Below, piece by piece: positions 4,103 through 31,700 of a stretch of 45,294 nt of DNA; positions within the stretch are counted from its first letter, which is position 1, and each line of letters starts with the position of its first letter. Made by a program: the position numbers and the translations under genes. Origin of the DNA: Nostoc sp. TH1S01 (GTDB taxonomy: Bacteria > Cyanobacteriota > Cyanobacteriia > Cyanobacteriales > Nostocaceae); assembly GCA_018993265.1 (NCBI GenBank), contig JAGKSW010000184.1, positions 1 to 45,294 of the forward strand. The letters run 5' to 3'. Below the pieces are notes generated by a model. It did not search any database and was not told where the DNA came from. It was given only the letters and a program-made list of their open reading frames with translations.

Positions 4103-4122
4103 TCTGAACGCTCCTTATAGTG

Positions 4123-5996: not shown

Positions 5997-5999
5997 AGG

Positions 6000-7664: not shown

Positions 7665-7742
7665 ATTTTGAATAAAAATTGTCGAAATTAATTTTGAAAA
7701 AATATTTGATTTTTTATAAAAGTTAAAATTTTAACAAACAAT

Positions 7743-9062: not shown

Positions 9063-9064
9063 GA

Positions 9065-11656: not shown

Positions 11657-11832
11657 AATTTTTCTCCACACCACATTGCACACCACTACAACAGGGTATT
11701 ACTTGCGTTTGATCGCAAATAACTCCATGTCTGCTGTTGCAGGATGAAAAAGTAGTAAATCAAACTTTGCCAAGTTCAACCTACTCCGCTTTAAGAATTT
11801 TCAAAGATTTTTGTTGAAGTACTGCTGAGAAC

Positions 11833-12664: not shown

Positions 12665-15600
12665 ATGAGCAAAAGCTTTTTCGAGTTACCAGTTGAATTT
12701 TCCACTTTGGTTGAACTGCTTCACTGGAGAGCAAGCAAGCAACCCCAACAGCAAGCATATACTTTTCTTGTAGATGGGGAATTGGAGGGTTCTTATTTAA
12801 CCTATGGAGAATTAGATTGGCAAGCTCGGCTTATTGCTACCTTATTTCAAAGCTGTGCAAAAAGGGGAGAAAGAGCATTGTTGCTCTACCCGCCAGGTTT
12901 AGAATTCATCGCTGCATTTTTTGGATGTCTTTATGCCGGAGTAATAGCGGTTCCTGCTTATCCGCCACGCTCAAACCGTTCCATGCCCCGATTACAAGCC
13001 ATCATTGCAGATGCACAGGCAACTATTGTCTTAACAACTACAAACCTTTTAACTGATATCAAGCGTCAGTTTATCCAGTTTCCAGAACTGGCAACTATGC
13101 AATGGCTAGCAACTGATCTGATTAGCAGTCAGGGAGAAAATAAATGGCAACAAGAAGCTACTCTTACCAGTGATACCTTAGCGTTGCTGCAATATACTTC
13201 AGGTTCTACAGCAGCACCAAAGGGAGTAAAGGTCAGTCATGGCAATCTTTTGCATAATCAAAAGCTGATCCAACTGGCAATGGAGCATACCGCAGAAACC
13301 GTTTTTGTCGGGTGGTTGCCTCTATTTCATGATATGGGATTGGTCGGGAATATGCTCCAGCCTTTGTACTTGGGAATACCCTGCATTCTCATGTCTCCTG
13401 TGGCGTTTCTGCAAAAACCTCTTCGTTGGTTACAAGCAATTTCCCGGTATAAAGCCACAACCAGTGGCGGGCCGAATTTTGCCTATGATTTATGCGTTCG
13501 TAAAATTACCCCAGAACAACGAACTACGCTGGATCTCAGTAGTTGGGAAATTGCTTTTAACGGGGCTGAACCGATTCGCAAAGAAACTTTAGAACAGTTT
13601 GCTGCCACCTTTGCTGAGTGCGGATTTCGCCGCGAGGCTTTTTATCCTTGTTATGGGATGGCAGAAACAACATTGATTGTTTCTGGTGGTAGTAAAGCGG
13701 CTCCACCAGTATTACAGTCGGTAAAGTCGTCAGCATTGGCACAAAATCAGATCATTCCAACGAGTACAGAAGAAGCTGATGTAAGGACGTTGGTAGGTTG
13801 TGGTCGTCCTTTGCCAGATTTAAAGATTATCATTGTTAATCCTGATACTTTAACACTTTGTCTACCTAGTGAAGTGGGCGAGATTTGGGTGGCGGGAGGT
13901 AGTGTGACTCAGGGGTATTGGTGTCGGACAGAACAAACTGAGTATACATTCCGAGCTTGCTTGAGAGATACAAAAGAAGGGACGTTTTTGCGTACAGGCG
14001 ACTTGGGATTTTTGTATGAAGGCGAACTCTTCATTACTGGTCGTCTGAAGGATTTGATAATTATCCGGGGGCGCAATCATTATCCGCAAGACATTGAATG
14101 GACGGTAGCTAAGAGCCACCCAGCACTACAAGCAGACGGTGGAGCAGCGTTTTCTGTTGATGTGAACGGCGAAGAAAGGCTAGTTATCGCCCAAGAAGTA
14201 CAGCGCAGTTATCTACGAAATTTAGAGACTGAGGAACTAGTAGGAGCTATCCGTCAGGCGGTTGTAGAAGGACATGAGGTGCAAGTTTATGCGGTGTTAC
14301 TTCTCAAACCAAGTAGTATTCCTAAAACTTCTAGCGGCAAGATTCAACGTCATGCTTGTTGGGCTGGGTTTTTGGCAGAAACTTTGGAAACAATAGCTAG
14401 CAGTATCCTAGAAAATGACCATCAAATAAATAGTCAAGTGGGCTTGAGTCGTGAAGATATTTTGGCATTGGAGCCATCACAGCGCCAGTCAAAACTAGAG
14501 TCTTATCTTCAACAACAAGTCGCTAGGGTGATGAAAGTATCCCTGAAGCAAGCAAATTCAAGGCAGCCTTTAGGTAGTTTGGGTGTTGATTCGTTAATAG
14601 CAATTGAACTTCAGCACACCATTGAAACTGATTTAGGTGTGGTTTTGCCAATGGCTTGTTTTTTAGGAAATGCCAGTATTGAACAACTAGCAATCAAGAT
14701 AATAGCGCAGTTAGAATCAAATTCGGTTAACGAACTCTCATCCCTTAATGCTGTTACCGAATATCCGCTTTCTCATGGGCAACAAGCATTATATTTTTTA
14801 CAGCAATTAGCTCCGGAAAATAGTGCTTACAACATTGCTAGGGCGGTGCTTATCGGGGGCGATTTAAATATTGAAGCGTTACATCGAGCTTTTCAAATAT
14901 TAGTCGATCGCCATCCTGGTCTACGTACTACTTTTATTACTAATCAAGGACAAACTGTACAGCGAGTCCATCAACAGTTACAAGTCTACTGGCAACAGGA
15001 AGATGCTAGCGAATGGGATGAATTATCTTTGAGCGATCGCCTGATTCAACTAGCTTATTCTCCCTTTGATTTGGAACAAGAACCGTTAATCAGAGTAGGT
15101 TTATTTATTCGCTCACCTCAAGAATATATTCTTTTGCTAGTAGTTCATCATATTGTGACAGACCTCTGGAGTTTGACTGTATTAGTGGATGAGTTAGGCA
15201 GGTTGTATGAGGCACAAAAAAACGGTATACCTCTAACTCTTCCTCCCTTGACCAAACAGTATGCTGACTACGTAAATGCTGAAGCACAAATGCTGGCAAG
15301 TCCAGAAGGTAAGCGACTTTGGGCTTACTGGCAAAAGCAATTAGCAGGGGAATTACCTGTATTAAATCTGCACACCGACCGTCCGCGCCCACCTGTGCAA
15401 AGTTACCGAGGGGCAACTTATACTTGTAAATTCAGTGCAGAACTCACACAGAAACTCAAAGACTTCAGCTGCGATCGCCAAGTCACCCTCTACATGACAC
15501 TGCTTGCAGCTTTTCAATCGCTGCTTTACCGCTACACAGGACAAGAGGATATACTCGTCGGTTCTCCTACCAGTGGCAGAAATCGAGCTGCTTGGGCGGG

Positions 15601-18600
15601 AGTTGTAGGTTACTTAGTCAATCCGGTAGTTCTTAGAGCCAGTTTCGCTGACAACCCTAGCTTTGAAACATTTTTACAAAAAGTCCAGCAAACAGTTTTA
15701 GATGCGTTTGCTCATCAAGATTATCCCTTTTCGCTGATAGTAGAACAGCTAGCACCTGTTCGTGATTTGGGGCGATCGCCTTTATTTCAGGTAATGTTTG
15801 TTTTACAAAAAGCCCAAATCGCACAGCAAGCAGGATTGGCAGCCTTAGCACTAGGTGAATCTGGAATAGGCATGAATTTGCGAGATTTACAGTTAGAAAC
15901 TTGGAGACTCGAACAGCAAATAGCGCAGTTTGAGTTAACCCTAATGATGGCTGAAATTGATGGGGTTCTAACAGCTTCTTGGCAATATAACTCTGACCTG
16001 TTTGATAGTAATACTATTACCCGTATGGCAGGTCATTTTCAAAGCTTACTGGAAAGTGCGATCGCCAACCCACTACAACCCATCGCTAAATTACCACTTT
16101 TGACAGATGCAGAACAGCATCAAATATTATCCGAATTTAGCCAACCCCAATCCAAAATCCGTCTTGAAAAGTTTGCTCAACGGGGGGGAACCCCCGCACG
16201 CAACTTTTCGCAAAATCCAAAATCTAAAATTGAGCGATGTCTGCATGAATTGTTTACAACTCAAGTAGAACAAACACCTCATGCTATAGCAATTACCTTT
16301 GCTGATGAACATCTAACTTACCAGCAACTCAACGCACGGGCAAATCAACTCGCGCACTATCTCCAAAACTTGGGTGTAAAGCCAGAAACTAAAGTTGGCT
16401 TATGCGTCGAACGTTCTTTAGAAATGATTGTGGGTATACTTGGTATTCTCAAAGCTGGGGGTGCTTATGTACCCTTAGATCCGAATTATCCCCAAGAGCG
16501 TTTGGCATTCATTTTAGAAGATGCAAATATCACGATAGTAGTAACGCAGAAGCAGCTAATCGAAAAACTTCCTACTTTTACAGGCTCCATTGTCTGCCTA
16601 GATCGAGTTAAACAAGAGAGAGAACACAACCCCATCAGCGAAGTTACAGCCGATAACTTAGGTTATGTAATTTATACTTCTGGTTCCACCGGTCAGCCGA
16701 AAGGCGTTTTGGTGAATCACTTCCATGTTGTGCGGTTATTTAGCTCAACTGACGAGTGGTTTAAATTTAGTAGTGGCGATGTGTGGACGCTGTTCCATTC
16801 CTATGCTTTCGACTTTTCTGTGTGGGAAATGTGGGGGGCGTTGCTGTACGGCGGACGCTTGGTAATCGTTCCCTACTGGATTAGTCGCTCTCCTGAAGCT
16901 TTCTATAATTTACTTTGTCAAGAGCAGGTAACAGTTCTCAATCAAACTCCTTCGGCTTTTCGTCAGTTGATGCGAGTAGAACAACAAGCTTCTAAACTTG
17001 CCTTGCGTCTAGTAATTTTTGGTGGGGAAGCCTTGGAAATCAAAAGCTTAAAGGCTTGGTTTGACCGTCATGGCGATTCACCGCAGTTAGTTAATATGTA
17101 CGGCATTACAGAAACTACTGTACACGTCACCTATTACCCTCTTACCAAAGCCGATATTGAACGCACCAACAGTATAATTGGTCGTCCAATTCCCGACTTA
17201 CAGGTGTATATATTAGATAAACATTGCCAACTCGTACCCATTGGAGTACCAGGAGAAATCTACGTTGGTGGTGCTGGTGTAACGCGGGGTTATTTGAATC
17301 GTCCCGAACTGACTGCTGCGAGGTTTAAACATTGCACCTTTGGAAATTACTCTATAAGGCTTTATCAAACCGGAGATTTAGGACGTTATTTACCTAATGG
17401 CGAACTTGAGTATTTAGGACGCATTGATGAACAAGTAAAAGTTCGCGGTTTCCGCATTGAATTGGGAGAAATTGAGGCGGTATTGCGCCAACATCCAGCT
17501 ATTGAGGAAGCTGTGGTTTTGATGCGAGAAACTGAGTTTGTTGGCGACATTCAGCCTAATACTGCTGTTACGGAACTGCGCCAGTTTATTAAACAAAATA
17601 AATCAGAAAATTTTAGCGATCGCCAATTAATTGCTTATTGCGTTTCTGCCCAACAACCTGCACCAACAATTACTGAATTGCGCCGTTGGCTAAAAAATCA
17701 GTTACCTGAATACATGATACCTGCGGCTTTCGTCATGTTAGATAGTCTACCTTTAACGCCTAATGGGAAAGTAGACAAACGAGCATTACCAAACTGCGAT
17801 CGCATCAGACCAGAACTAGATACAGCTTACATTGCTCCGACTACCTCAGTAGAAAAAGCATTAGCTCAAATCTGGACACAGGTATTGAGGATTGAACGAG
17901 TAGGTATCTACGATAACTTTTTTGAGTTAGGAGGAGATTCTATTCGTAGTATTCAGGTGCTAGCTAAATCTCAGGAAAGAGGCTTAAGTTTTTCTCTACA
18001 ACAACTTTTTCAACATCAAACGATTTATGAATTGGCGCAAGAAGTCAACATTGCAGAACCGAGTTATTTATGGAAGCAGAAAACAGAAAGATTCAGTTTG
18101 ATTGCTGCAAGCGATGGGCTACGCCCCGCCGTAGGCGATCGCCAAAAATTACCATTAGATATAGAAGATGCCTATCCTTTAGCGAGAATCCAGGCGGGAG
18201 TTATTTTTCATTCTCAATACAGCCCTGATTCGCCAATGTATCATGATATATTCTTCTACCAGTTGCGAGTTCGTTTTGATGTCGAATGTTTGCAACAAGC
18301 AATTCAGCAATTAGTAAATCGTCACCCAATTTTACGGACTTCGTTTGATTTAATCAACTTTAGCGAACCATTGCAACTAGTCCATGAGCAAGTGAGTGTA
18401 CCGCTACAGGTAGAAGATTTACGCTCTCTATCGCCAACTCAGCAAAAACAAGCAATTGACACTTGGATAGAAACTGAGAAACAGCGAAATTTTGATTGGA
18501 CTTGTCCACCAATGATTCGCTTCTTCGTTCATCGCCTCACTGACGAGTCTTTTTATCTCGTCTTGAGTTTCCACGACTGCATTTTAGATGGATGGAGTAC

Positions 18601-21139
18601 TGCTTCATTACTAACTGAATTACTACATCGTTATTGGGCTTTACTTCACAACCAGACATATCCTCTTGATTCGTCACCGACAATTACATACCGAGATTTT
18701 GTTGCACTAGAACGTTCAACGCTAGAGTCAGAAAAATGCCGTAACTATTGGACGCAAAAGCTACAAGATTGCATCACAATGCAATTACCGCGTTGGAATC
18801 GTAACAGCCTTAGCAGTACCAATCCTGAAATTGGTATTTTAAATGTTCCTATCTCCTCTGAATTGTCCGATAAACTCAAACAGCTGGCGAAGATAGCGCA
18901 AGTTCCTGTTAAGCACGTTTTATTAGCTGCACATATCAGAGTCATGAGTTTATTAAGTGGTGAGACGGATGTATTAACGGGTTTGGAGTCTAACGGTAGA
19001 TTAGAGACTGAAGACGGAGAACAAACGCTAGGTATTCATTTAAATACTGTGCCATTGCGTTTACATCTGCATGGAGGAACTTGGATAGACTTAATACAAC
19101 AAACTTTTCAAGCAGAAAGTGAATTATTACCTTATAGACGCTATCCCTACGCAGAATTGAAAAAGCTTAATCGTGGAGAACAGTTATTTGAAACTGTTTT
19201 TAATTACACTCACTTTCATATATTCCAGAATCTCCAATCATTACAAGATTTGGAAATTATCGGCGCGCAAGGTTTTGGTGAAACCCATTTTGCTTTAAGA
19301 GTCGAGTTTAACCGAGAGCCATTTTCGGATAATATTCAACTTGATTTAGAATGCGACCTCACCAAGATTAATCAAGTTCAACTAGAAGCCATTGGCGGTT
19401 ACTATTTTGAGACACTAACAGCCATGTCTCACCAACCAAGCGCTCGCTATGAGTCTCAATGTTTGCTTCCTGTTAATGAACAGCATAAGTTATTGGTGGA
19501 GTGGAATGATACAAACAGCAAATATCCCGAAAACTTACTCATTCATCAATGGTTTGTAAATCAGGCATTGCAGACACCAGATGCAACAGCATTAATATTT
19601 GAGGATCAGCAGTTAACTTATCAAGAACTCAACGAACGTTCTGATCAACTTGCTCATTACTTGCAAAATTTAGGGGTAAGTTGTGATGTACCTGTAGGAC
19701 TCTATGTAGAACGTTCTATAGAAATGATCGTAGGGATATTAGGTATTCTCAAAGCTGGTGGCACATACGTACCGCTAGATCCTGCATATCCGCAAGAGCA
19801 TATCAATTTGATACTGCAAGATGCTAGGGTGTCATTGGTCGTTAGTCAAAAGACATTAGTTAATAGCTTAAGTCAAATAAGGGTTATTTGCCTGGATACA
19901 GACTGGAAATTAATAACAAGAAGTAGCCAAGATAAGCTCATTAACTGCACCGAGCAAAACAATTTAGCATATATTATTTATACTTCTGGTTCTACGGGTA
20001 AACCGAAAGGAGTACCAGTTACTCATAAAAATTTAGTGCATTCTACCAGTGCCAGAATTGCTTATTACTCAGAACCCGTTCGCAGTTTTTTATTAATTCC
20101 TTCATTTGCCTTTGATAGTTCGGTGGCAGTGATTTTCTGGACTTTGTGTCAAGGAGGAACTTTAATATTAATTAAGGAAGGTAGACAAAGAGATATTTGG
20201 CATTTAGGACAGGCGATCGCACACCATCAAATTTCTCATTGGTTAAGTGTTCCTTCTTTGTACGCATTGTTGTTAGACCATATCCAACCTGCTGAATTAA
20301 TCTCTCTACGTACTGTGATTATTGCGGGAGAAACTTGTTCACCCGCCTTAGTCAAACATCACCGTCAACTATTACCCCAAGCATCACTTTTCAATGAATA
20401 CGGGCCGACCGAAGCAACCGTCTGGAGTAGTGTCTGCAATTGTCAAGACCATGAATCAAGCCATACTATCCCCATCGGTCGTCCCATTGCTAACACCCAA
20501 ATATATTTGCTAGATACCCACTTACAACCTGTACCAGTCGGAGTTGTCGGAGAAATATATATTGGTGGAGAAGGTGTAGTCAGTGGATATCTAAATCATC
20601 CTGAATTAACCGCCCAAAAATTCATTCCTAACCCCTTTGAGAAGGCAGAAGGTAAGAGGTTGTATAAGACAGGAGATTTAGGGCGTTTTCTTCCTGACGG
20701 CAATATCGAATTCATTGGTCGCCGCGATTATCAAGTCAAAATCAATGGATATCGGATTGAATTAGAAGAGATTGAGACAGTATTAAAACAACGCCCAGAA
20801 GTTAAAAATGCGGTGGTTTTAGCGAGAGAAGAATTAGGAAAAAAATATTTAGTAGCTTATGTTGTAACATCTGATATTGCACCCAGCACCAGCCAATTAC
20901 GAAATTACTTAAAAAAGAAATTGCCAGCTTATAAAATACCTAACAATTTCATAATCTTAGATACCTTGCCTTTGACTCCTAATGGCAAAGTTGACCGTCG
21001 GAATTTACCAGCACCTAATCAAAAACTCATAAATGAGATGAAAATAGCCCATCTTTTACAAAAGCTGGAACAAATTTCTGATGAAGAAGCACAACTTATA
21101 CTTGCTCAAAAGAAAATATTAACTTTACAACCTGAATAA
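12665..21139 (+). CDS. Loading NRPS: FAAL-ACP-C-A(Thr)-PCP-C-A without terminal PCP
   Basis: This 2824-aa first enzyme of the assembly line activates a fatty acid and adds two residues. Domains: fatty-acyl-AMP ligase about 1-590 (YTSGSTAAPKGV near 175); ACP 600-675 (GVDSL, Ser643); C1 698-1150 (HHIVTD near 828); A1 1190-1710; PCP 1720-1800 (LGGDS, Ser1759); C2 1831-2275; A2 2290-2780; then a tail with ISDEEAQLILAQKK. The A1 specificity residues read D-F-W-N-I-G-M-V-H, the classical threonine code. A2 reads D-S-A-L-I-A-E-V-W, which I cannot assign. C2 has HDCILDG (1970-1976) instead of HHxxxDG, so the usual catalytic second His is Asp. The protein ends after A2, and its carrier is the next gene. 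Two linkers contain intergenic-type repeat DNA in frame. The start is supported by GAGAAGG. Confidence 0.93.
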   Translation: MSKSFFELPVEFSTLVELLHWRASKQPQQQAYTFLVDGELEGSYLTYGELDWQARLIATLFQSCAKRGERALLLYPPGLEFIAAFFGCLYAGVIAVPAYPPRSNRSMPRLQAIIADAQATIVLTTTNLLTDIKRQFIQFPELATMQWLATDLISSQGENKWQQEATLTSDTLALLQYTSGSTAAPKGVKVSHGNLLHNQKLIQLAMEHTAETVFVGWLPLFHDMGLVGNMLQPLYLGIPCILMSPVAFLQKPLRWLQAISRYKATTSGGPNFAYDLCVRKITPEQRTTLDLSSWEIAFNGAEPIRKETLEQFAATFAECGFRREAFYPCYGMAETTLIVSGGSKAAPPVLQSVKSSALAQNQIIPTSTEEADVRTLVGCGRPLPDLKIIIVNPDTLTLCLPSEVGEIWVAGGSVTQGYWCRTEQTEYTFRACLRDTKEGTFLRTGDLGFLYEGELFITGRLKDLIIIRGRNHYPQDIEWTVAKSHPALQADGGAAFSVDVNGEERLVIAQEVQRSYLRNLETEELVGAIRQAVVEGHEVQVYAVLLLKPSSIPKTSSGKIQRHACWAGFLAETLETIASSILENDHQINSQVGLSREDILALEPSQRQSKLESYLQQQVARVMKVSLKQANSRQPLGSLGVDSLIAIELQHTIETDLGVVLPMACFLGNASIEQLAIKIIAQLESNSVNELSSLNAVTEYPLSHGQQALYFLQQLAPENSAYNIARAVLIGGDLNIEALHRAFQILVDRHPGLRTTFITNQGQTVQRVHQQLQVYWQQEDASEWDELSLSDRLIQLAYSPFDLEQEPLIRVGLFIRSPQEYILLLVVHHIVTDLWSLTVLVDELGRLYEAQKNGIPLTLPPLTKQYADYVNAEAQMLASPEGKRLWAYWQKQLAGELPVLNLHTDRPRPPVQSYRGATYTCKFSAELTQKLKDFSCDRQVTLYMTLLAAFQSLLYRYTGQEDILVGSPTSGRNRAAWAGVVGYLVNPVVLRASFADNPSFETFLQKVQQTVLDAFAHQDYPFSLIVEQLAPVRDLGRSPLFQVMFVLQKAQIAQQAGLAALALGESGIGMNLRDLQLETWRLEQQIAQFELTLMMAEIDGVLTASWQYNSDLFDSNTITRMAGHFQSLLESAIANPLQPIAKLPLLTDAEQHQILSEFSQPQSKIRLEKFAQRGGTPARNFSQNPKSKIERCLHELFTTQVEQTPHAIAITFADEHLTYQQLNARANQLAHYLQNLGVKPETKVGLCVERSLEMIVGILGILKAGGAYVPLDPNYPQERLAFILEDANITIVVTQKQLIEKLPTFTGSIVCLDRVKQEREHNPISEVTADNLGYVIYTSGSTGQPKGVLVNHFHVVRLFSSTDEWFKFSSGDVWTLFHSYAFDFSVWEMWGALLYGGRLVIVPYWISRSPEAFYNLLCQEQVTVLNQTPSAFRQLMRVEQQASKLALRLVIFGGEALEIKSLKAWFDRHGDSPQLVNMYGITETTVHVTYYPLTKADIERTNSIIGRPIPDLQVYILDKHCQLVPIGVPGEIYVGGAGVTRGYLNRPELTAARFKHCTFGNYSIRLYQTGDLGRYLPNGELEYLGRIDEQVKVRGFRIELGEIEAVLRQHPAIEEAVVLMRETEFVGDIQPNTAVTELRQFIKQNKSENFSDRQLIAYCVSAQQPAPTITELRRWLKNQLPEYMIPAAFVMLDSLPLTPNGKVDKRALPNCDRIRPELDTAYIAPTTSVEKALAQIWTQVLRIERVGIYDNFFELGGDSIRSIQVLAKSQERGLSFSLQQLFQHQTIYELAQEVNIAEPSYLWKQKTERFSLIAASDGLRPAVGDRQKLPLDIEDAYPLARIQAGVIFHSQYSPDSPMYHDIFFYQLRVRFDVECLQQAIQQLVNRHPILRTSFDLINFSEPLQLVHEQVSVPLQVEDLRSLSPTQQKQAIDTWIETEKQRNFDWTCPPMIRFFVHRLTDESFYLVLSFHDCILDGWSTASLLTELLHRYWALLHNQTYPLDSSPTITYRDFVALERSTLESEKCRNYWTQKLQDCITMQLPRWNRNSLSSTNPEIGILNVPISSELSDKLKQLAKIAQVPVKHVLLAAHIRVMSLLSGETDVLTGLESNGRLETEDGEQTLGIHLNTVPLRLHLHGGTWIDLIQQTFQAESELLPYRRYPYAELKKLNRGEQLFETVFNYTHFHIFQNLQSLQDLEIIGAQGFGETHFALRVEFNREPFSDNIQLDLECDLTKINQVQLEAIGGYYFETLTAMSHQPSARYESQCLLPVNEQHKLLVEWNDTNSKYPENLLIHQWFVNQALQTPDATALIFEDQQLTYQELNERSDQLAHYLQNLGVSCDVPVGLYVERSIEMIVGILGILKAGGTYVPLDPAYPQEHINLILQDARVSLVVSQKTLVNSLSQIRVICLDTDWKLITRSSQDKLINCTEQNNLAYIIYTSGSTGKPKGVPVTHKNLVHSTSARIAYYSEPVRSFLLIPSFAFDSSVAVIFWTLCQGGTLILIKEGRQRDIWHLGQAIAHHQISHWLSVPSLYALLLDHIQPAELISLRTVIIAGETCSPALVKHHRQLLPQASLFNEYGPTEATVWSSVCNCQDHESSHTIPIGRPIANTQIYLLDTHLQPVPVGVVGEIYIGGEGVVSGYLNHPELTAQKFIPNPFEKAEGKRLYKTGDLGRFLPDGNIEFIGRRDYQVKINGYRIELEEIETVLKQRPEVKNAVVLAREELGKKYLVAYVVTSDIAPSTSQLRNYLKKKLPAYKIPNNFIILDTLPLTPNGKVDRRNLPAPNQKLINEMKIAHLLQKLEQISDEEAQLILAQKKILTLQPE
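16149..16224. repeat. Hairpin repeat inserted in frame in the C1-A1 linker
   Basis: A hairpin with arms GAAAAGTTTGC (16166-16176) and GCAACTTTTC (16200-16209), and an inner CGGGGG/CCCCCG stem, is flanked by 11-bp direct repeats AATCCAAAATC at 16149-16159 and 16214-16224. This is the look of intergenic repeats in Nostocales. Here it is translated as residues of about 1160-1190, adding roughly 20 residues compared with the other C-A linkers in this cluster. Confidence 0.7.
18111..18142. repeat. Palindromic repeat in frame in the PCP-C2 linker
   Basis: The stretch begins GCGATGGGCTACGCCCCGCC and continues GTAGGCGATCGC. It contains an imperfect palindrome (GCTACG facing CGTAGGC) and resembles the GC-rich interspersed repeats scattered through Nostocales genomes. 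It is translated as about residues 1816-1826 of the loading NRPS, between the carrier and the second condensation domain. Confidence 0.5.
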
Positions 21140-21155
21140 ACTAGAGAAACAAAAA

Positions 21156-21599
21156 ATGAGTGATTTTTTGGAACGCCTTGAACAACTATCACCAGAAAAA
21201 CGTGAACTACTAAATCTCTTCCTCCAAGAAGAAGACCCACAGATAGAAGAAAACTATGTAGAACCTACAACACAAGTTGAAAAAGCACTAGCAAGTATAT
21301 GGAGTCAAGTTCTTGGTATTGAAAGGGTGGGTATTTATGATAACTTCTTCGAGATGGGAGGAGATTCTATTCAGAGCATTCAAATTATTGCCAAAGCAAA
21401 TCAACTAGGTTGGCAACTGACGACTAATCAACTGTTTGATTATCCAACTATTGCTGAATTAGCAAAAATCGCGGAAACAACTTTGCTTACTTCGACGAAC
21501 AGCGAAGAAGCGCAATCTGAAAATTTAACTAGCTTTATACCTTCAGATTTTCCAGAATCCGAATTAAGTCAATCAGAGCTAAACGAGCTTTTCAGCTAA
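21156..21599 (+). CDS. Free-standing peptidyl carrier protein
   Basis: This 147-aa protein carries one PCP domain and nothing else. An N-terminal helix-like stretch (MSDFLERLEQLSPEKRELL) resembles NRPS inter-protein leader sequences. The carrier core spans about 36-115 with the phosphopantetheine site FFEMGGDSIQ, Ser71. The acidic, serine-rich tail (SDFPESELSQSELNELFS) resembles linkers that normally lead from a PCP into a condensation domain. The gene lies 16 bases after the loading NRPS, which ends in an A domain with no carrier, and 1 base before a free-standing C domain. The natural reading is a module split over three proteins, with this one receiving the amino acid from A2. Fission of a longer ancestral gene is likely. 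Confidence 0.9.
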   Translation: MSDFLERLEQLSPEKRELLNLFLQEEDPQIEENYVEPTTQVEKALASIWSQVLGIERVGIYDNFFEMGGDSIQSIQIIAKANQLGWQLTTNQLFDYPTIAELAKIAETTLLTSTNSEEAQSENLTSFIPSDFPESELSQSELNELFS

Positions 21600-21600
21600 C

Positions 21601-23028
21601 ATGAAACTTGAAGATGTTGAAGACATTTATACTCTTTCGCCAACTCAACAAGGGATGCTATTTCACATCCTGGCGGAACCGAATTCAGGAATGTATTTAG
21701 AGCAAATTTTATGTACATTACAAGGAAAGCTGAATTTCTCTGCTTTTAATAAAGCTTGGCAGCAAATTGTAGAACGCCATCCCAGTTTAAGAACAGGTTT
21801 TATTTCCAAGAATTTAGATAAACCAGTTCAAGTAGTATATCGGCGTGTGAAACTGGTAATAGAGCAGTATGATTGGCAGAACTTCTCGAATTATAAGCAG
21901 AAAGAACAATTAAATTCTTTTGTAGAACTAGACCGTCAGCGTGGCTTTCAGCTTTCTGAACCGCCTTTAATGCGCCTAACTTTAATTTGTATTGATGAGG
22001 ACGTTTATCAGCTGATTTGGACTACTTACCATCTGATATTAGATGGTTGGTGTACTGATATTTTACTGAAAGAATTTTTTACTCTTTACGAAGCATTTTG
22101 CCAAGGCGATAGTCTGCAATTACAATCATGTCGTCCCTATAGAGATTATATAGCTTGGTTGAAAAAGCAGGATTTATCAGCAGCAGAAGCATTTTGGCAA
22201 CAAAGCCTTATGGGATTCAAAAAGCCAACTTCTTTGGCAATTAACCGCAGTTTTAACTATGGTAAAAAAGATAACTATGCTCAACAGCAAATTCAACTAT
22301 CTACAACTGTTACAGCAGAACTTAAATCCTTTGCAAAACACCACCATTTAACTTTAAATACTTTATTTCTTGGTGCTTGGGCTTTGTTACTCAGCCACTA
22401 TAGCAAGGAAAAAGATGTAGTATTTGGTACTGTTGTATCTGGTCGTCCTGTAACTTTACCAGGAGTTGAATTAATAGTAGGTCTTTTCGTTAACACTTTA
22501 CCAACGCGAGTGCAAATTTCTCCTCAAGATTCACTCGTACCTTGGTTAAAACAACTCCAGTCTCAATATAAGCAACTACGTCAGTATGAACACACTCCTT
22601 TGATAAACATTCAAAGTTGGAGTGAAGTTTCTGGGGGATTACCATTATTTGAAAGTCTGTTAGCGTGTCAAAACTCGTTAGTAGATATTTCTCGCCTATC
22701 TACAACTAACTTAAAAATTAATAACGTTTCTTTCTTTTCACGCTCTAATTATCCCCTCACACTTATCTTACTACTTGGTTCAAGCTTAGGTCTAGTGGCT
22801 CAATATGATTCATATTTTTACAAATTTATAAACATTACTAGAATTCTAAATTACTTGCAAATATTATTTAATGCTTTCGTGGAAGAACCTAATATACAAC
22901 TGGAAAACTTAGTTAACTTAATTCAGGAATATGAAAACAAAGAAAAAACTGACGATTTAAAAAGAATACGAAATATAGCTGCTAATAAATTAAAAAACAT
23001 TCAACCAAAAACCATTATACTTTCATAA
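21601..23028 (+). CDS. Free-standing condensation domain
   Basis: This 475-aa protein is a single complete C domain. It starts at the first C motif (TLSPTQQGMLFHILAEPNSG), continues through VERHPSLRTGF, and has the active-site motif YHLILDG at 143-149. The first His is Tyr but the catalytic second His (144), Asp148 and Gly149 are kept. Later motifs such as GTVVSGRP and VGLFVNTLPTRV are present. It ends in a Lys/Asn-rich tail of about 40 residues. No A or PCP domain follows. It probably condenses the residue on the preceding free PCP with the serine module downstream, whose own C domain is degenerate. That is inference. Alternatives are ester formation or a non-elongating role. Confidence 0.88.
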   Translation: MKLEDVEDIYTLSPTQQGMLFHILAEPNSGMYLEQILCTLQGKLNFSAFNKAWQQIVERHPSLRTGFISKNLDKPVQVVYRRVKLVIEQYDWQNFSNYKQKEQLNSFVELDRQRGFQLSEPPLMRLTLICIDEDVYQLIWTTYHLILDGWCTDILLKEFFTLYEAFCQGDSLQLQSCRPYRDYIAWLKKQDLSAAEAFWQQSLMGFKKPTSLAINRSFNYGKKDNYAQQQIQLSTTVTAELKSFAKHHHLTLNTLFLGAWALLLSHYSKEKDVVFGTVVSGRPVTLPGVELIVGLFVNTLPTRVQISPQDSLVPWLKQLQSQYKQLRQYEHTPLINIQSWSEVSGGLPLFESLLACQNSLVDISRLSTTNLKINNVSFFSRSNYPLTLILLLGSSLGLVAQYDSYFYKFINITRILNYLQILFNAFVEEPNIQLENLVNLIQEYENKEKTDDLKRIRNIAANKLKNIQPKTIILS

Positions 23029-23032
23029 AATT

Positions 23033-23761
23033 ATGTCTTCTACAATTACTCATCCCGACTACAATCTTATTGCTTCAGTTAATAATCAATATTATAGTCA
23101 AGATTATCTTGACTATAATTTGCCATTTGTTAACGAACTATTTTTACCACAGATGCCTGTTACTTCAAATATTCTTGATGTTTGCTGTGGCGTTGGTCGT
23201 TTAGCACAGATGTTGTTAAACAAAGGATATAAAGTCACAGGAATTGATAGCTCAGAAGCAATGCTGCATTATGCTCGTAAAAATGCCAGCAATGGTGAAT
23301 TTATTTTCAGTGATGCGCGTTCTTTTGAATTACCACCAGTTTTTGAGGGAGCAATTTCTACAGGCGCTTTCAATCATTTTATGTCTTGTGAAGAATTGAG
23401 AAGTGCTTTTGAGAGTGTTTACAAAGCATTACGCTTTAACGGTTTATTTGTATTTAATATTTTGTTAGAACAAGGGTTTCAAGCTGGCTGGAATGACATT
23501 GTTTTAAGTGATGCTAAAGATGATTGTGCCTGGATTGTAAAACACACGTACAATCCAGAAGAAAAGATAGATCAAATAAAAATTACTGGTTTTAAATTTA
23601 TTGAAGAAAGTTGGCGACGTTTTGACGATATCATGTTAGTTAAAAGTTATGCCGCAGATGAAGTTATATCTGCTTTAGAAAATGTAGGTTTTAAGCAAGT
23701 TCGTGTTTATTATAGTGAACCAGATAAACCACGCGAAACCTATTTTGTTGCCTACAAGTAA
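23033..23761 (+). CDS. SAM-dependent class I methyltransferase
   Basis: This 242-aa soluble methyltransferase has the SAM-binding motif I ILDVCCGVGRLAQML near residues 47-60. The acidic residue ending motif II lies in YKVTGIDSSEAMLHYARKNA, and GAISTGAFNHFM occupies the motif IV area. The fold is of the Methyltransf_25 / UbiE-like type, and the acceptor is unknown. The gene begins 4 bases after the free C domain and lies in the middle of the biosynthetic operon. It therefore probably methylates an O or N atom of the peptide or a precursor amino acid. There is no methyltransferase domain within any A domain of the cluster, so this would be the only methylation step in the window. Confidence 0.85.
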   Translation: MSSTITHPDYNLIASVNNQYYSQDYLDYNLPFVNELFLPQMPVTSNILDVCCGVGRLAQMLLNKGYKVTGIDSSEAMLHYARKNASNGEFIFSDARSFELPPVFEGAISTGAFNHFMSCEELRSAFESVYKALRFNGLFVFNILLEQGFQAGWNDIVLSDAKDDCAWIVKHTYNPEEKIDQIKITGFKFIEESWRRFDDIMLVKSYAADEVISALENVGFKQVRVYYSEPDKPRETYFVAYK

Positions 23762-23825
23762 ATAATATCGCAATGTACAAATTAAATGTTGTCCACTAAT
23801 AGTTTCCATAGGAAGTTTTATATAG

Positions 23826-25661
23826 ATGTGTGGTATTGTAGGCATTTTTTCCAGACAAGAACCAATTATAGTAGAGGCTTTAACTAAAGCTACACAACAG
23901 TTGAGCGATCGCGGCCCCGATCGCCAATCACATTGGGTTGCTTCCCACCAAAAAGTCGGATTAGGTCATACTCGACTTAGTATTATTGATTTAGCAACAG
24001 GCAATCAACCAATAACCAATGAAAATGAAAAGTTACACGTTGTCGTGAATGGAGAGTTTTATGATTATGAAAAGATTCAGCATCAATTAAAAAACTCAGG
24101 TCATCGACTGAGAACCCGTTCTGATAGCGAAATTGTACTTCATCTATATGAAGAATTTGGCACTGAATGTCTGCAATATCTCCGGGGTGAATTTGCATTT
24201 ATCTTGTGGGATGAGGCGAAACAGGTTTTGTTTGCAGCACGCGATCGCTTTGGAATTAAACCACTTTTTTACACTACAGTTGGTAATACACTTTATCTAG
24301 CATCAGCAGCCAAAGCTTTATTTGCTGCTGGAGTTCCCGCCAGTTGGGATTATGAATCATATTTTCAGCAGTTATTCATTTATGTCAATCAAGACCGCAC
24401 CTTGTTTGAGGGTGTCAAGCAAATTCCGCCTGGACACTATTTGTTAGCAACGCACAATCAAACTCAGATTACTCGCTATTGGGATCTGGATTATCCAACA
24501 GCTAATCAACAAATACCACAACGTCAAGATCATGAATATATTGAGCTATTCCGCCACAAATTGGAAGAAGCTGTGCAAATTCGGCTGCGGGCTGATGTAC
24601 CTGTAGGTAGTTTCTTGAGTGGTGGTATTGATTCATCAGCTGTTTTGGGAATAGCAGCAAAATCTAGTTGCGATCCAATTCGCGCTTTTACTGTTTCTTT
24701 TGATCGCCCAGCCTATGATGAAGAACCTATCGCTCGTGAAACAGCAAAATATGTTGGTGCTGATTTTCAAGTGATTCGGCTTAATCAATCTGATTTTGCT
24801 GAACATATTGCTGATGCAATTTGGCACGCTGAAACTTTGGGTGTAAATTCACATGGTGTAGCAAGATATATACAAAGTCGTGTAGTCCGACAATCGGGTT
24901 ATAAAGTTGTTTTATCTGGGGAAGGTTCGGACGAAATTTTGGCAGGGTATAGTCACACACGCCAAGATTTACTTTTCAATAATTGTATTCAAAAAACACC
25001 AACCGCTTTAACTAGCGTAGAGCAGAAATTAGGATTTCTCCCTTCATGGTTAAAAGAAATAGCAGTTAAACGTTCTGTTTTTCACCTGCTTCTCAATCCT
25101 GATTATGCCTCTGATTATTCTGACTTAGATGTTTATGGCAAGTTTTTAAACCAATTTCATATTGAGGAACAAATTTTAGGAAGAGAACCAGTTATTCAAT
25201 CTTTATATTTGTGGTCTAAATCCATTTTACCTAACTATATTTTGTTTGCTGAACGTTTAGAAATGGCTAATGCGATCGAGGTACGTTTACCCTTTTTAGA
25301 TCATCATCTTTTTGAATTAGTACGTGAAATGCCAGTTTCTCTATTAATTCGGGGGATGAAAGAAAAATATGTGCTAAGAGAAGCGGCTAGACCTTTTCTG
25401 ACTGATACAGTCTACACTCGTCCAAAACAACCTTTTACTGCTCCACCTGTAACTATTACGACTAATAATTCTCTTTATATTTTAATTCAAGATGTGTTGC
25501 GGAGTTCAGTTATGGCATCTGTACCATTTTTTAACCAATCGGCGATCGCTACACTCTTAGATGGACTTGCAACTATGAAAGAAAGTCAGCGTATTAATTT
25601 AGAGCCAGCTTTACTGATGCTATTAGGTACTTGCTTTTTACAAAGTCGTTTTAATCTTTAG
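23826..25661 (+). CDS. asnB: Asparagine synthetase, glutamine-hydrolysing type
   Basis: This 611-aa enzyme converts a carboxylate to an amide using glutamine and ATP. The N-terminal glutaminase (class II) domain begins with the nucleophile Cys2 in MCGIVGIFS and includes the conserved RDRFGIKPLFY. The C-terminal synthetase domain has the pyrophosphate loop SFLSGGIDSSAV and the later GEGSDEILAGY motif. Length and motifs match family members and nothing is truncated. GGAAG lies about 10 bases before the ATG. Within an NRPS operon such enzymes can be tailoring amidotransferases, acting on a peptide or monomer carboxylate, or can supply asparagine. The A domains I could read do not call for Asn, which favours tailoring. 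This is inference. Confidence 0.88.
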   Translation: MCGIVGIFSRQEPIIVEALTKATQQLSDRGPDRQSHWVASHQKVGLGHTRLSIIDLATGNQPITNENEKLHVVVNGEFYDYEKIQHQLKNSGHRLRTRSDSEIVLHLYEEFGTECLQYLRGEFAFILWDEAKQVLFAARDRFGIKPLFYTTVGNTLYLASAAKALFAAGVPASWDYESYFQQLFIYVNQDRTLFEGVKQIPPGHYLLATHNQTQITRYWDLDYPTANQQIPQRQDHEYIELFRHKLEEAVQIRLRADVPVGSFLSGGIDSSAVLGIAAKSSCDPIRAFTVSFDRPAYDEEPIARETAKYVGADFQVIRLNQSDFAEHIADAIWHAETLGVNSHGVARYIQSRVVRQSGYKVVLSGEGSDEILAGYSHTRQDLLFNNCIQKTPTALTSVEQKLGFLPSWLKEIAVKRSVFHLLLNPDYASDYSDLDVYGKFLNQFHIEEQILGREPVIQSLYLWSKSILPNYILFAERLEMANAIEVRLPFLDHHLFELVREMPVSLLIRGMKEKYVLREAARPFLTDTVYTRPKQPFTAPPVTITTNNSLYILIQDVLRSSVMASVPFFNQSAIATLLDGLATMKESQRINLEPALLMLLGTCFLQSRFNL

Positions 25662-25690
25662 TTGCAAAATATATAAAAAAATTTAAAACG

Positions 25691-25729
25691 CAAAGGTGCG
25701 CTGAGGTAAGCGCAGAGGAACACAGAGGT
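25691..25729 (+). repeat. 10-bp periodic repeat reaching the NRPS start codon
   Basis: Four degenerate 10-base units (CAAAGGTGCG, CTGAGGTAAG, CGCAGAGGAA, CACAGAGGT followed by A of the ATG) run directly into the start codon. The GCGCAGAGG-type repeat is a familiar intergenic sequence in Nostocales. Here AGAGGA at 25714-25719 is the only plausible ribosome-binding site, about 10 bases from the ATG. Confidence 0.6.
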
Positions 25730-28700
25730 ATGATTGAAGGCTTTGAACTATCACCCCAGCAAAAGAATATCTGGCTGTTACAGCAAGATAGTTCAGTTTA
25801 TCGAACACAGATGAGTGTTTTAATTGATGGAAAATTGAATGTGGAAGCTTTACAAGAGGCTTTTCAAGAGTTGATTAATCGGCATGAAATTCTCCGCACG
25901 ACATTCAAAATTTTGCCGGATATGGAGTTTCCTGTTCAGGTTACTAGTAGTACCAGTATTCTAAATTGGCAAGAATTAGATTTGAGTTATCTAAATGCTG
26001 ATGAGCAAGAAAGCCAAATTTTAGAATTTTTAATAACAGATAATAAATGTAAGTCTAATTATTTATTATTTTATGTGTATTTAATTAGATTATTAGAACA
26101 AAAGTATATTTTAATCGTTACGTTACCCAGCCTTTGTGCTGATTCTATAACCCTGGATAATTTATTACATGAACTGACGATTTTATATAGCAATAAATAT
26201 AATTGCTTAAACAATTCTCCTTTACAGTATGTACATTTTTCTGCATGGAAAAATGAGTTATTAACTGATGAAGAGTTAGAATTGGGTAGAGATTATTGGC
26301 ACAACAAGCAAATATCAGATTTTTTAAATCTTCAACTTCCTTTTGAAAAGGATAATTTTAAACATAAAAAATTTCAACCAGCAGTTTTATCTGTTAAATT
26401 GGCTGACGTTTTGGTAAATCAAGTAGAAGAATTTATTCAAAGACATCAAATATCAAAATCTACTTTTTTTCTGACTGCATGGAAAATTTTACTTTGGCAT
26501 CTTACGGATCGGTCTGATATTGTCATCGGAACTAATTACAATGGGCGTTCATACCCTGAATTAGAAACTACATTTGGTTTGTTAGCTCAATATTTACCAA
26601 TTCACTCTCACTTAGAAGCTGAAGACATTTGTACTCAAGTGTTACAACAAGTTGATGCAGCAATTTGTGAGGCTTATTCTTGGCAAGAGTATTTTGCTTG
26701 GGATCAAATCATCAGAACAACAGATAATTCTAATACTTTACCGCCTCATTTATATTGTTTTGATTTTCAAGGTTATCAGCAAGCGTATTTAGCTGATAGT
26801 GTTTTATTTTATGTTAAACAGAAATATGTCTGTTTATCACCTTTTAGAATTAAGCTTAATTGTATTGACAGAAAAAATTTTATTGATATAGAGTTACATT
26901 ATAATTCAAATTTGTTTTCATTGGAAGCTGTCAAAAATTTATCAAAACAATATCAAACATTAATCGAAAGTATATTAAATGAAGAAAAAACAACTATAAG
27001 TAATTTACGAATTATAGATAAAGCAGAACAAGAAAAAGTTTTATTTACCTGGAACAACACCTATAGAGACTATCAAGAAGCATTTCAATGCCTTCATCAA
27101 ATTTTTGAAACTCAAGTAGAACAAACTCCCGATGCAGTTGCTGTTGTCTTTTTAGACCAAAAGATAACATATCGAGAGTTGAACCAACGAGCTAATCAAC
27201 TAGCACATTACCTGCAAAAGTTGGGGGTAGTGCCGGAGGTTTTAGTTGGCATTTGTATGACACGCTCTATAGATTTAATCATTGGGCTGTTAGCTATTTT
27301 CAAGGCTGGAGGAGCTTACATACCACTAGATCCTACCTATCCCCAGGAACGTCTAGGTTTTATGTTAGCTGAAACACAAGCACCAGTTTTATTAACTCAA
27401 CAGCCATTATTAGATTTACTTCCAGAACATGAAGCGCAAGTCATTTGTATAGATAGAGATTGGGAGCAAATTGCCCAGGAAAGTTTAGAAAACCCTGCTA
27501 GTAGGGTAACTCCAGATAATTTAGCCTATGTAATCTATACTTCTGGCTCAACAGGAAAGCCCAAAGGAGTAATGAATAATCATAAGGGTGTAAATAATCG
27601 CTTGTTGTGGATGCAAGAGACTTTTCAATTCACAACCGCAGATAGATTTTTACAAAAAACCCCCTTGAGTTTTGATGTTTCTATTTGGGAAATTTTTTCG
27701 CCTTTTTTAGCAGGTGCAAGTCTAGTATTAGCTAAACCAGATGGTCATCAAGATAGTAATTATTTAGTTCAGTTAATTGCCCAGCAACAAATTACTACTG
27801 TTCATTTTGTGCCATCAATGTTAGCAGTGTTTTTAAATGAGACAGGATTAGAAAAATGCCAAAGTCTCAAACGAGTTTTTTGTAGTGGAGAAGCACTTTC
27901 TTTTGACCTTCAAGAGAGGTTTTTTGCTCGCCTAGATGCAGAATTACATAATCTTTACGGGCCGACGGAAGCATCTATCGAAGTAACTTGGTGGCATTGT
28001 CAACGAGATAGCGATCGCAATATTGTACCCATTGGTCGCCCAATCTCTAATATGCAGACATATATTTTAGATAAGTATTTGCGTCCTGTCCCTATTGGTG
28101 TTCCAGGTGAGTTACACATTGCTGGTGTAGGAGTAGCGCGGGGTTATTTGCATCGACCTGATTTGACTGCACAAAGGTTTATTTTTAATCCTTTCACTTC
28201 TGAGGATAACAAACTGTACAAAACAGGTGATTTAGCTCGTTATTTACCTGATGGCAATATTGAATACTTGGGACGTATAGATGACCAAGTAAAAATTAGA
28301 GGATTTCGCATTGAGTTAGGTGAAATTGAAGCCGTTTTACACCAGCATTATAGTGTTTCGACTGCAATTGTTCAGGCGCAAAATCAAGTTGATGAAAAAC
28401 GCTTGGTTGCTTATATAGTGCCGCACCCACAATCAATGCCTAAAACTTCAGAACTGCGGTATTTTCTCGAACAGAAACTACCTAAATATATGGTTCCGGC
28501 AGAATTTATATTTTTAAAAGTACTGCCCCTTTTATCCAATGGAAAAATAGACCGTCAGGGATTACTAACTGTTGAACGAATACAACGAGAACCGGAAAAT
28601 TATTTTGTCGCCCCGCAAACAGCAACACAGCAAATTGTGACAGACATTTGGCAACAAGTTTTAAATCTAGAGAAGGTAGGCATCTACGATAATTTTTTTG

Positions 28701-31700
28701 AGTTAGGTGGGCATTCACTATTAGCAATTCAGGTTATTTCCCGATTAAATAAAGCTTTTAAAATTGAACTGCCTATACGTAGTTTATTTGATGCACCTAC
28801 TGTTGCAGAATTAGTAGAGATAATTGCCCAAACTAGTACCCCACAAACACAGATTATTCCTCACACAACAAGAAGTGAGCCTTGTCAGCTTTCCTTTGCT
28901 CAACAGCGATTATGGTTTCTCAACCAATTAGAATCAGATGTTTTTGCTTACAATATCTCCACAACTGTCCGCCTGCAAGGGCAACTCAATCAAACTGCAC
29001 TGCATCAGAGTTTTAATGAAATTGTCTGTCGCCACGAAGCTTTAAGAACAAGTTTTACCGTTATTAATGACCAGCCTGTTCAAGTTATAGCTTCTAATTT
29101 AACTTTAAATTTGCCTGTGGTAGACCTACGGCATCTCTGTGAGAATGAACAGGAAGCAGAGGTTCAGCGTTTGGCAATATCTGAAGCACAACACTCTTTT
29201 AATTTGGCTGAAGTGCCATTGCTACGAATTACTTTGATATGTTTAAGCGATGTAGATCGTGTCTTGCTATTTACGGTACATCATATAGTTTTTGATGGCT
29301 GGTCGATAGAAATATTGTTGCGTGAAGTAACTAGTCTTTATCAAGCTTTCTGTGCTGGTAAACCTTCCCCTCTTGCCAAATTACCAATTCAATATGCTGA
29401 CTTTGCTATTTGGCAAAGACAATGGCTTCAAGGCGAGACACTCAAATCTCAATTAGCTTATTGGCAGCAGCAATTAGCCCAAATTCCTCTATTAGAGTTG
29501 CCTACAGATAATCCCCGCCCGCCGATTCAAAGCTTTCGCGGTGCATCAGAGCCTTTTTTCTTGCCTGCAAATTTGACTGAGGCACTTAAAACACTGAGCA
29601 ATCGGGAAGGGGCTACTCTGTTTATGACTTTGCTTGCTGCCTTCAAGACATTGCTTTACCGCTACAGTGGACAGAATGATGTTGTAGTCGGTTCACCTAT
29701 TGCTAATCGCGATCGCACTGAGTTAGAAGGGCTAATTGGCTTTTTTGTCAATACTTTAGTCTTACGTACTGATTTGAGTGGCAATCCTACCTTTCGAGAA
29801 TTGTTGCATAGAGTCCGAGAAGTAACATTAGACGCTTATGCCCACCAAGACTTACCCTTTGAATATTTAGTAGAAAAACTTCAGCCAGAACGAAACTTAA
29901 GCCACAACCCGATATTTCAGATTATGTTTGCCCTTGGAAATAACCCAATGGTAGACTTCAAACTCCCTGGTTTAAATGCCAGTTTCTTGAACATTGAGCG
30001 TCAAGCTGCCACTTTTGATTTAAGTGTGTCACTAGAAGTAGATGCTGAAGAACTGCGGGGTAATTTTGAGTACAACACGAATATATTTAGTGCCGATACA
30101 ATTCGGCAGATGGTAGAACATTTTCAGATATTACTAGCAGGTGTAGTAGATAATCCAGACCAGCATCTAGCAAATTTACCCTTATTAAGTGCCACGGAAG
30201 AACATCAATTATTGGTGGAGTGGAACAACACAGAATTTGAATATCCTCTCAATCAATGTATTCATCATTTATTTGAAGCTCAAGTAGAACTAACACCAAA
30301 TAAAGTTGCTGTTGCCTATCAAGACCAGGAAATTACTTACCACGAACTTAATACTCGCGCCAATCAACTCGCACGTTATCTACAAAAATTAGGTGTAGGA
30401 ACAGAAGTATTAGTAGGTATATATGTTGAGCGATCAATTGAAATGGTAATAGGTTTATTGGGGATTCTTAAAGCTGGGGGGGCTTATGTACCTCTAGACC
30501 CAATATATCCCCAAGAACGCTTGGCTTTAATTCTAGAAGATGCTCAAGTATCAGTGCTATTAACTCAAGAAAAATTGGCAGCAACGCTACCGAAAAATAC
30601 AGCAAAATTAGTATTTTTAGATACTGATTGGCAAGCGATCGCTACAGAAAGTCGATGCAACCTTACTAACCAAACCACCAGTCAAAACTTAGCTTATGTT
30701 ATCTTTACTTCTGGTTCAACAGGACGACCCAAGGGAGTAGAAATTGTTCATAGTGCTGTCGTTAACTTTTTGTACTCTACAGGTCAAACGTTGGGCTTAG
30801 AAGAGCAAGATATTCTTTTATCTGTGACAACTTTAGCTTTTGATATTGCGGTTTTAGAAATTTTTCTGCCTTTAACAGTTGGTGCGCGTGTCATTGTGGT
30901 CAGTCGAGAAGTAGCGACAAATGGTGTGGAATTGTCAGCTTGGTTAAATAAATCTCAAGCAACAATTATGCAAGCTACACCAGCAACTTGGCAACTGCTA
31001 TTAGAAGCAGAATGGCAGGGCAATTCTCAACTAAAAATTCTTTGTGGTGGTGAAGCCTTTCCTAGACATTTAGCCAATCAACTATGCCAAAAATGTGCAT
31101 CTGTATGGAATCTGTACGGCCCTACAGAAACTACCATCTGGTCAGCAGTTTGCAAAGTAGAAATAGAGAACGGTATTGTGCCGATTGGTCGCCCCCTTGC
31201 TAACACACAAATGTACATTCTCGATCAATACGGTCAACTTGTGCCGAGAGGAGTTACAGGTGAATTACACATTGGGGGTGGTGGTTTAGCTAGAGGCTAT
31301 TTAAATCAACCTGAGTTAACTGTCGAGAAATTTATTCCTAATCCTTTTAATAATTATTCAAAATTTAATCGTCTATACAAAACAGGTGATTTAGTTCGCT
31401 ATTTACCAAATGGCAATATTGAATATTTAGGGCGAATTGACGATCAGGTAAAACTCAGGGGTTTTCGGATAGAACTAGGAGAAATTGAAGCAGTACTGAA
31501 TCAATATCTAGGGGTGAAACAGGCTGTAGTTTTGCTCAATCAGCAATTAGTCGCTTATATAGTCTCTACCAATCAGCAAAATCTTACAAATAATGAGTTG
31601 CGGAATTTCTTGAAGCAGAAGTTACCCGACTACATGATACCTAGTGAGTTTATTTTATTAGAAACATTTCCCTTAACCCCTAATGGCAAAGTAGACCGTC

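Follow-up and report, generated by a model that had tools for sequence, protein, structure and literature searches.

The nonribosomal peptide synthetase (NRPS) cluster considered here lies on a 45,294-nucleotide stretch of Nostoc sp. TH1S01 (contig JAGKSW010000184.1; G000:C152:1-45294 in our numbering, in a genome of 7.65 Mb), which is referred to below as the window. Its second NRPS gene (NRPS2) opens with a condensation (C) superfamily domain, designated C*, in which the HHxxxDG motif reads PSLCADS. In a first-pass annotation, C* was described as a dead cis C domain that is bypassed by a free C domain encoded upstream. This description cannot be kept. Judged from sequence comparison, C* has not died as a cis domain in the window; it belongs to an inherited clade in which the catalytic His is missing throughout and which is nearly always found with a hydroxylase gene. 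We consider it probable that the free C domain bonds the residue of the preceding adenylation (A) domain, A2, to the Ser on peptidyl carrier protein domain PCP3, and that C* was inherited as an interface-type domain and here lacks the hydroxylase that would partner it.

In the proposed mechanism, A2 would load the free PCP (PCP2), and the free C would join that residue to the Ser on PCP3. C* would be a non-catalytic interface-type domain which, in the beta-hydroxylating lines, stands at the head of an A-PCP module, behind a hydroxylase and a separate active C domain. The ancestral gene order was probably PCP-E (E, epimerization), then C-TauD, then C*-A-PCP, from which the lineage of the window would have lost the E and TauD domains; A3, the A domain behind C*, is Ser-like and would supply a residue with its own beta-hydroxyl. 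C* would have been retained within the C*-A-PCP unit as a scaffold, possibly touching the free C. From the comparisons that follow we infer that the free C is the catalyst, in what direction and order these events ran, and what part C* plays today.

The C* clade and its gene context

A profile built from 13 C* domains was searched against 386 genomes of the phylum and gave 54 matches above a score gap (at least 397 bits against at most 307); up to four candidates were scored per genome, and the counts of C* are lower bounds. With nine from other searches, 63 C* domains were compared. Their HMM (hidden Markov model) scores are at least 393, against at most 294 for the next domains, and they form one clade, with a support of 1.0 in a tree of 236 domains and of 0.874 in a larger tree. 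The window's own C* belongs to the C superfamily, for PF00668 matches two stretches of NRPS2 and our C profile matches from residue 1. All 63 domains stand at the N-terminus of a protein. In one alignment, none keeps the second His of the motif, as opposed to 203 of the 226 other C-superfamily domains whose motif could be read; the second motif position is occupied by A (44), S (16), T (2) or G (1), and the motif Asp is kept in all 63. The 23 exceptions outside C*, assigned to types by motif and position, are nine C2 domains (the second C domain of NRPS1, discussed below), six Cy domains, five proteobacterial C*-like domains and three others. A chance loss of the motif in a single domain was considered and rejected, as 0/63 C* keep the second His.

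A His-bearing C domain is encoded upstream of C* in 62 of the 63 loci, with C* opening the next protein. Whether homologous clusters keep the two together was a check proposed in the first-pass annotation; the pair recurs in these 62. A TauD domain lies within the four preceding domain-bearing open reading frames (ORFs) of 56 C*, in 50 of them in the immediately preceding ORF, and it is fused to the C domain in 27 of these loci and separate in 29. The seven C* without a nearby TauD are those of the window, Nostoc sp. ATCC 43529 (L042), Westiellopsis prolifica (L043), contig C39 of genome G305, G381, G305 contig C142 and L168. Two of them, in G381 contig C113 (L078 14351-15130) and G305 C142 (L075 7473-8252), are preceded by an AspH-type protein (PF05118), which brings the loci with a hydroxylase gene of either type to 58 of 63; in L168 a C domain and then TauD occur about 20 kb off, on the opposite strand. 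Because a hydroxylase gene almost always accompanies C* (56/63 TauD, 2/63 AspH), the free C is a less likely inherited partner of C* than the hydroxylase.

The cyanochelin B cluster of Leptolyngbya sp. NIES-3755 (AP017310) allows domains and bonds to be counted. As given in PMC12628792, the determined structure consists of an acylated thiazoline, Phe, Gly, beta-OH-Asp, Ser, beta-OH-Asp and ethanolamine, and the hydroxyls are assigned to one NRPS-fused and one self-standing hydroxylase; the word 'interface' does not occur in the main text of that paper. Matched by position, the two hydroxylases are BAU16013 and BAU16062. BAU16013 ends in C-TauD and is followed by BAU16012, which is opened by a C* (PALCADT); BAU16061 is opened by the other C* (PSLCADA), after a protein ending in E-C plus a free TauD. 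One NRPS gene spans the origin of AP017310 and, when joined, reads C-A-PCP-E-C. The six His-bearing C domains correspond to the six peptide bonds after the thiazoline, so that both C* are surplus, and each C* opens a module placed for beta-OH-Asp. Because the C domains match the bonds in number when C* is left out, C* would not catalyse condensation, and the upstream C domain would.

A similar arrangement is found outside the cyanobacteria. A related TauD was matched in 83 plasmid records, 60 of them listed, and eight proteobacterial regions were picked by hand from these. In five of the eight, a His-less domain (SPLVCDR, SALRADA, NPLAADR, PALVADR or SPFCCDY) opens the gene that follows C-TauD or TauD, and the A domain next to it is Asp-type or has the code DSALIAEVW. 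Two of these five C*-like domains, from Variovorax and Methylocystis, group with the cyanobacterial C* with a support of 0.998; the other three fall outside that group or are too incomplete, short rows having been left out of the tree.

The interface (I) domains found in NRPSs for beta-hydroxylated siderophores were reportedly described by Reitz et al. in 2019, a paper cited in PMC12230676 and PMC10212144. By that description, C* appears to be interface-type by descent rather than a proven member. Like interface domains, it is a C-superfamily domain without the catalytic His, beside the A domain of its module and in a siderophore-type cluster, and a separate C upstream is present in the free C, which with its His144 is predicted to be active. 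It differs in that no partner hydroxylase is found in the window cluster and that A3 is Ser-like by its pocket code, not an A domain for beta-hydroxylated Asp or His. An interface-type subtype is recognised in the antiSMASH 8 paper (PMC12230676) and in PMC10212144, and cyanobacterial hydroxylase clades are named in PMC12971057. No paper on a hydroxylase-less interface domain or on the window cluster turned up in searches of the open-licence literature, none of them worded exactly so.

The free PCP, the free C and the missing hydroxylase

The relatives of the window cluster are cyanobacterial. The nearest are Nostoc sp. ATCC 43529 and Westiellopsis prolifica, both with 93% identity in the free C and covered for about 10 kb either side of it. 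Related clusters lie on plasmid C of Trichormus variabilis (L039) and plasmid 3 of Nostoc carneum (L040); further relatives by the free C are G305 contig C39 (69%), G370 (60%), and G381, G305 contig C142 and G263 (52%), and G006 was found through the PCP. Their common map runs from NRPS1 through a PCP or PCP-E, a free C or a C with an extension and small enzymes to an NRPS opened by C*, of which none occurs within the 24 kb examined in G370. The Nostoc carneum cluster looks broken, its NRPS1 being shortened beside an integrase gene, with extra ORFs inside.

NRPS1 has two PP-binding matches in Pfam, none of them beyond its last A domain, and the earlier statement that it ends in A2 with no carrier therefore stands. 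What was called the loading NRPS has the full architecture FAAL-ACP-C-A-PCP-C-A. The Ser71 of the free PCP, the His144 of the free C and the PSLCADS of C* are likewise all present in the sequence as reported earlier.

Both ends of the free PCP can be aligned with PCP-E proteins, those of G263, G381 and G006; the intervening E domain is absent and the post-E linker is kept. A second C domain behind the PCP in the relatives of 586-588 aa was considered and rejected, as these are E domains by motif. In Nostoc sp. ATCC 43529 the free PCP (L042 9556-9999) has QGDS in place of GGDS, with the Ser kept. The C-terminus of the free C corresponds to the linker beyond which TauD begins in L039, G263 and G006; its orthologues carry the TauD fusion in these three and in L040, and it ends alike in L042, L043, G305 C39, G381 and G305 C142. 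No TauD remnant is seen 3' of the free C in the window, where the next gene is only 4 bases away. The first His of HHxxxDG is a Tyr in the free C.

In G370, A2-PCP-E is a single protein, which supports the pairing of A2 with the free PCP proposed in the first-pass annotation. On contig C511 of the same genome (L076), the orthologue of the free C forms a fusion protein of 580 aa with a downstream PCP that lacks an A domain, and a polyketide synthase (PKS) follows directly. By eye, the tail of the free PCP and the head of the free C resemble a split PCP-C linker. We read A2, PCP2 and the free C as consecutive parts of one line, and the bookkeeping of the window sets six C-type domains other than C* against six expected C-type bonds. 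The free C is likely the catalyst of the bond onto Ser-PCP3, as had been proposed; the recurrence of the pair in 62/63 loci and the agreement of C domains and bonds in cyanochelin B point the same way. It is a discrete protein with the second His and in this resembles free-standing C domains such as VibH and SgcC5. Unlike them, it has C-TauD orthologues and stands upstream of a C* module, and its expected acceptor is a carrier-bound Ser.

No hydroxylase was found in four clusters, namely the window, L042 and L043 (each within about 10 kb either side of the free C for the latter two) and G305 C39. There are no TauD, AspH, JmjC or PhyH type matches among the ORFs of the window, and a search of the window's genome shows no TauD on its contig. 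The A domain behind C* is Ser-type in all four hydroxylase-free clusters and Thr-like in G381, which is of the AspH type. Behind the 56 C* with TauD, most codes are Asp-type (DLTK...) or DSALIAEVW; L040 has DAHITTHVV, and two others are DATK. None of the codes read was for Ser or Thr, five of the 56 being missing or incomplete. The unusual point is that four related clusters, in none of which a hydroxylase was found, keep C* in front of a Ser-type A domain. As a simple account, the hydroxylase may have been lost alongside a residue that already bears a beta-hydroxyl.

The pocket codes of the window were read as DFWNIGMVH (A1), DSALIAEVW (A2), DVWHFSLIE (A3), DILQLGLIW (A4), DLYNLSLIW (A5) and DVENIGAIG (A6). 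Going by specificity codes, we take A1 to be for Thr, A3 for Ser, A4 for Gly and A5 for Cys, and A2 to be His-like (code DSELTAEVC); A6 was given no substrate. In a literature search no paper was found with three of six reference A-domain codes, so that the substrate labels are putative.

Selection on C* and alternative readings

The numbers of non-synonymous substitutions per site (dN) were compared over 13 domains or genes in four pairs among the window, L042, L043 and G305 C39. C* has the highest dN in three of the four pairs (0.063, 0.063 and 0.358) and the second highest in the pair of the window and L043 (0.055 vs 0.060 for A1). Among the window, L042 and L043, the ratio of dN to synonymous substitutions (dN/dS) of C* is 0.35, 0.53 and 0.42; other domains reach 0.44 (A3), 0.41 (methyltransferase) and 0.36 (PCP2), and most lie at 0.13-0.31. 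More widely, dN/dS of C* is 0.32-0.53 in the five hydroxylase-free pairs compared (of six) and 0.41 in one AspH pair; for the TauD pairs in which it could be computed, the range is 0.13-0.33. Four of the five hydroxylase-free pairs (0.35-0.53) exceed every TauD pair with a value, and in three hydroxylase-free pairs dS is only 0.10-0.18, which makes their dN/dS noisy. The dN of C* relative to that of the A domain is 1.74-2.20 in hydroxylase-free pairs vs 0.46-3.78 in TauD pairs, and relative to that of the upstream C domain 1.63-2.00 (five pairs) vs 0.27-5.06. The dN/dS values thus lean to some relaxation; the rates relative to neighbours overlap, so that relaxation is not claimed.

The second C domain of NRPS1, C2, also bears on how a missing His is to be read; its loss of the second His (nt 18572-18592) is absent from the first-pass annotation. 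The motif reads HDCILDG, HDAILDG, HDSILDG, HNSILDG or HTSILDG across the clusters, the second His being lost in 10 of 10, the window included. Nine C2 domains in the tree of 236 form one clade (support 0.98). C2 is strongly conserved (dN/dS 0.09-0.28). By the bond count there is no spare C domain for the bond of C2; either C2 needs no second His to function, or the free C does double duty. The rule that a domain without the His is dead, on which C* had been called dead, is weakened accordingly, and calls made from HHxxxDG only would lump C*, a specialised clade, with C2, a His-less domain that has a bond to account for.

Several observations weigh against the interpretation favoured here. C2 shows that a domain is not proved inactive by lacking the second His alone. 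Purifying selection still acts on C*, which therefore seems to retain some function without an adjoining hydroxylase. The genomes of the window, L042 and L043 encode, at other loci, TauD proteins that resemble the cyanochelin hydroxylases, which makes action in trans conceivable. The four hydroxylase-free clusters are close relatives and probably represent one event. Finally, the arrangement is absent in three of the eight proteobacterial regions.

It is possible, although we hold it tentatively, that C* outlived its hydroxylase and gained a new job, as a non-catalytic C-fold scaffold which brings the free C or the AsnB-like protein to Ser-PCP. If true, this would be a hydroxylase-less interface domain at work and a natural split of catalysis and docking over two C-fold proteins. 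The window type offers a natural experiment on the role of interface domains, since a hydroxylase-linked clade is kept where no hydroxylase is found, and a second role of C*, as scaffold or in docking, is testable by comparing it with TauD-bearing relatives.

A narrower form, in which C* now docks the free C and the latter catalyses in trans in its place, appears doubtful. In its favour, C* is still under purifying selection where the cluster has no hydroxylase, the ratio of its dN to that of the upstream C falls inside the TauD-pair range, and the free C has no covalent link to the acceptor module; a hydroxylase gene beside C* in 58 of 63 loci, however, suffices to explain C*, and contact between C* and the free C is a proposal only.

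C* might also still act as the interface of a trans-acting hydroxylase whose gene lies in another part of the genome, which we regard as improbable. A search for the TauD family covered four genomes, and in that of the window it gave matches on C45 (two), C86 and C103. With a cyanochelin-type TauD as the query, only the two on C45 were found in this genome (48-52% identical), together with one strong match each in the genomes of L042 and L043 and only a 28% match in G381. However, both C45 proteins precede C* domains of their own, and the pocket of A3 is Ser-type. Contig C45 (L150, L151) carries a second NRPS cluster, of the cyanochelin type, with two TauD and two C*.

There is little to recommend a reading in which C* needs no His for catalysis and the free C has another job, for example aiding the C2 bond before A2. 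C2, conserved and seemingly functional without its second His, speaks for it, but C* is surplus in the count for cyanochelin B, the free C follows PCP2 in gene order with what looks like a split PCP-C linker, and the G370 orthologue of the free C is fused to a downstream PCP.

Nor does it seem likely that C* has been re-used to dock one of the two proteins encoded just before it, the AsnB-like one or the methyltransferase. Eight clusters of the family, whether they have a hydroxylase or not, carry an AsnB gene in between the free C and C*, but none was seen in the four ORFs before the other 55 C*. The methyltransferase gene is missing or a remnant in four of these eight, being undetected in G006, G381 and G305 C142 and a remnant in Westiellopsis prolifica (L043 11425-11735).

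That C* is a decaying relic without a role is very unlikely, for although its dN ranks first or second in the four pairs and its dN/dS is raised in four of five hydroxylase-free pairs, dN/dS is well under 1, the frame is open, neighbouring domains are also somewhat raised in three pairs, and three pairs have the low dS noted above.

Cluster layout and neighbouring features

The features of the window are listed in Table 1. The product of the cluster is probably an iron-binding lipopeptide.

Table 1. Positions of the NRPS, PKS and accessory features in the window
Feature	Position	Strand	Basis
NRPS1: FAAL-ACP-C1-A1 (Thr-like)-PCP1-C2-A2, carrier-less end	12665..21139	+	Pfam and own HMMs, pocket codes
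C2 of NRPS1, HDCILDG at 18572-18592 (second His replaced)	18155..19510	+	
A2, pocket DSALIAEVW (His-like by the code DSELTAEVC)	19553..20989	+	
Free PCP, Ser71 in GGDS (nt 21357-21368)	21156..21599	+	
Free C, 475 aa, YHLILDG with His144 (nt 22027-22047)	21601..23028	+	
Class I SAM methyltransferase	23033..23761	+	
AsnB-like glutamine amidotransferase, Cys2 and SGGIDSS present	23826..25661	+	
NRPS2: C*-A3-PCP3-C4-A4-PCP4	25730..32059	+	
C*, putative interface-type C-superfamily domain, PSLCADS at 26126-26146	25730..27058	+	
A3 (pocket DVWHFSLIE, Ser-like) and PCP3	27104..28834	+	
C4 (HHIVFDG)-A4 (DILQLGLIW, Gly-like)-PCP4 of NRPS2	28871..32059	+	
PKS-NRPS: KS-AT-KR-PCP-Cy-A5 (Cys-like, with nitroreductase-type Ox)-PCP	32068..40617	+	
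Last NRPS: TubC_N docking-C6-A6-PCP-TE	40755..45053	+	
Transport genes: two ABC ATPases, two permeases, SBP_bac_5 binding protein, glycosyltransferase-like, TonB-dependent receptor	2557..11686	-	

The FAAL start and the TonB-type receptor are shared with the cyanochelin B cluster, in which C* likewise opens the next protein as C*-A-PCP, there after C-TauD or after C and then TauD. The window differs in that it has no TauD, a split between A2 and its PCP, and AsnB and methyltransferase genes; none of its six A domains has an Asp-type pocket, and beta-OH-Asp modules of the cyanochelin type are thus not found in it.

The cluster on plasmid C of Trichormus variabilis (L039) carries a similar set of transport genes, annotated there as siderophore transport, and shares the order NRPS1, PCP, C, methyltransferase and C*-A. 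Unlike in the window, its free C is still fused to TauD, its C*-A-PCP is in two ORFs, AsnB was undetected and the other downstream genes differ. The split of C*-A-PCP, in strain ATCC 29413 (L039 23314-26553), is into ORFs of 722 and 314 aa.

A glycosyltransferase-like gene (UDPGT and related Pfam families) lies amid the transport genes of the window (7743-9062, - strand); given this gene, the product may be glycosylated. Two transposase genes (345-1307 and 1597-2439) adjoin the transport genes at the left end of the window.

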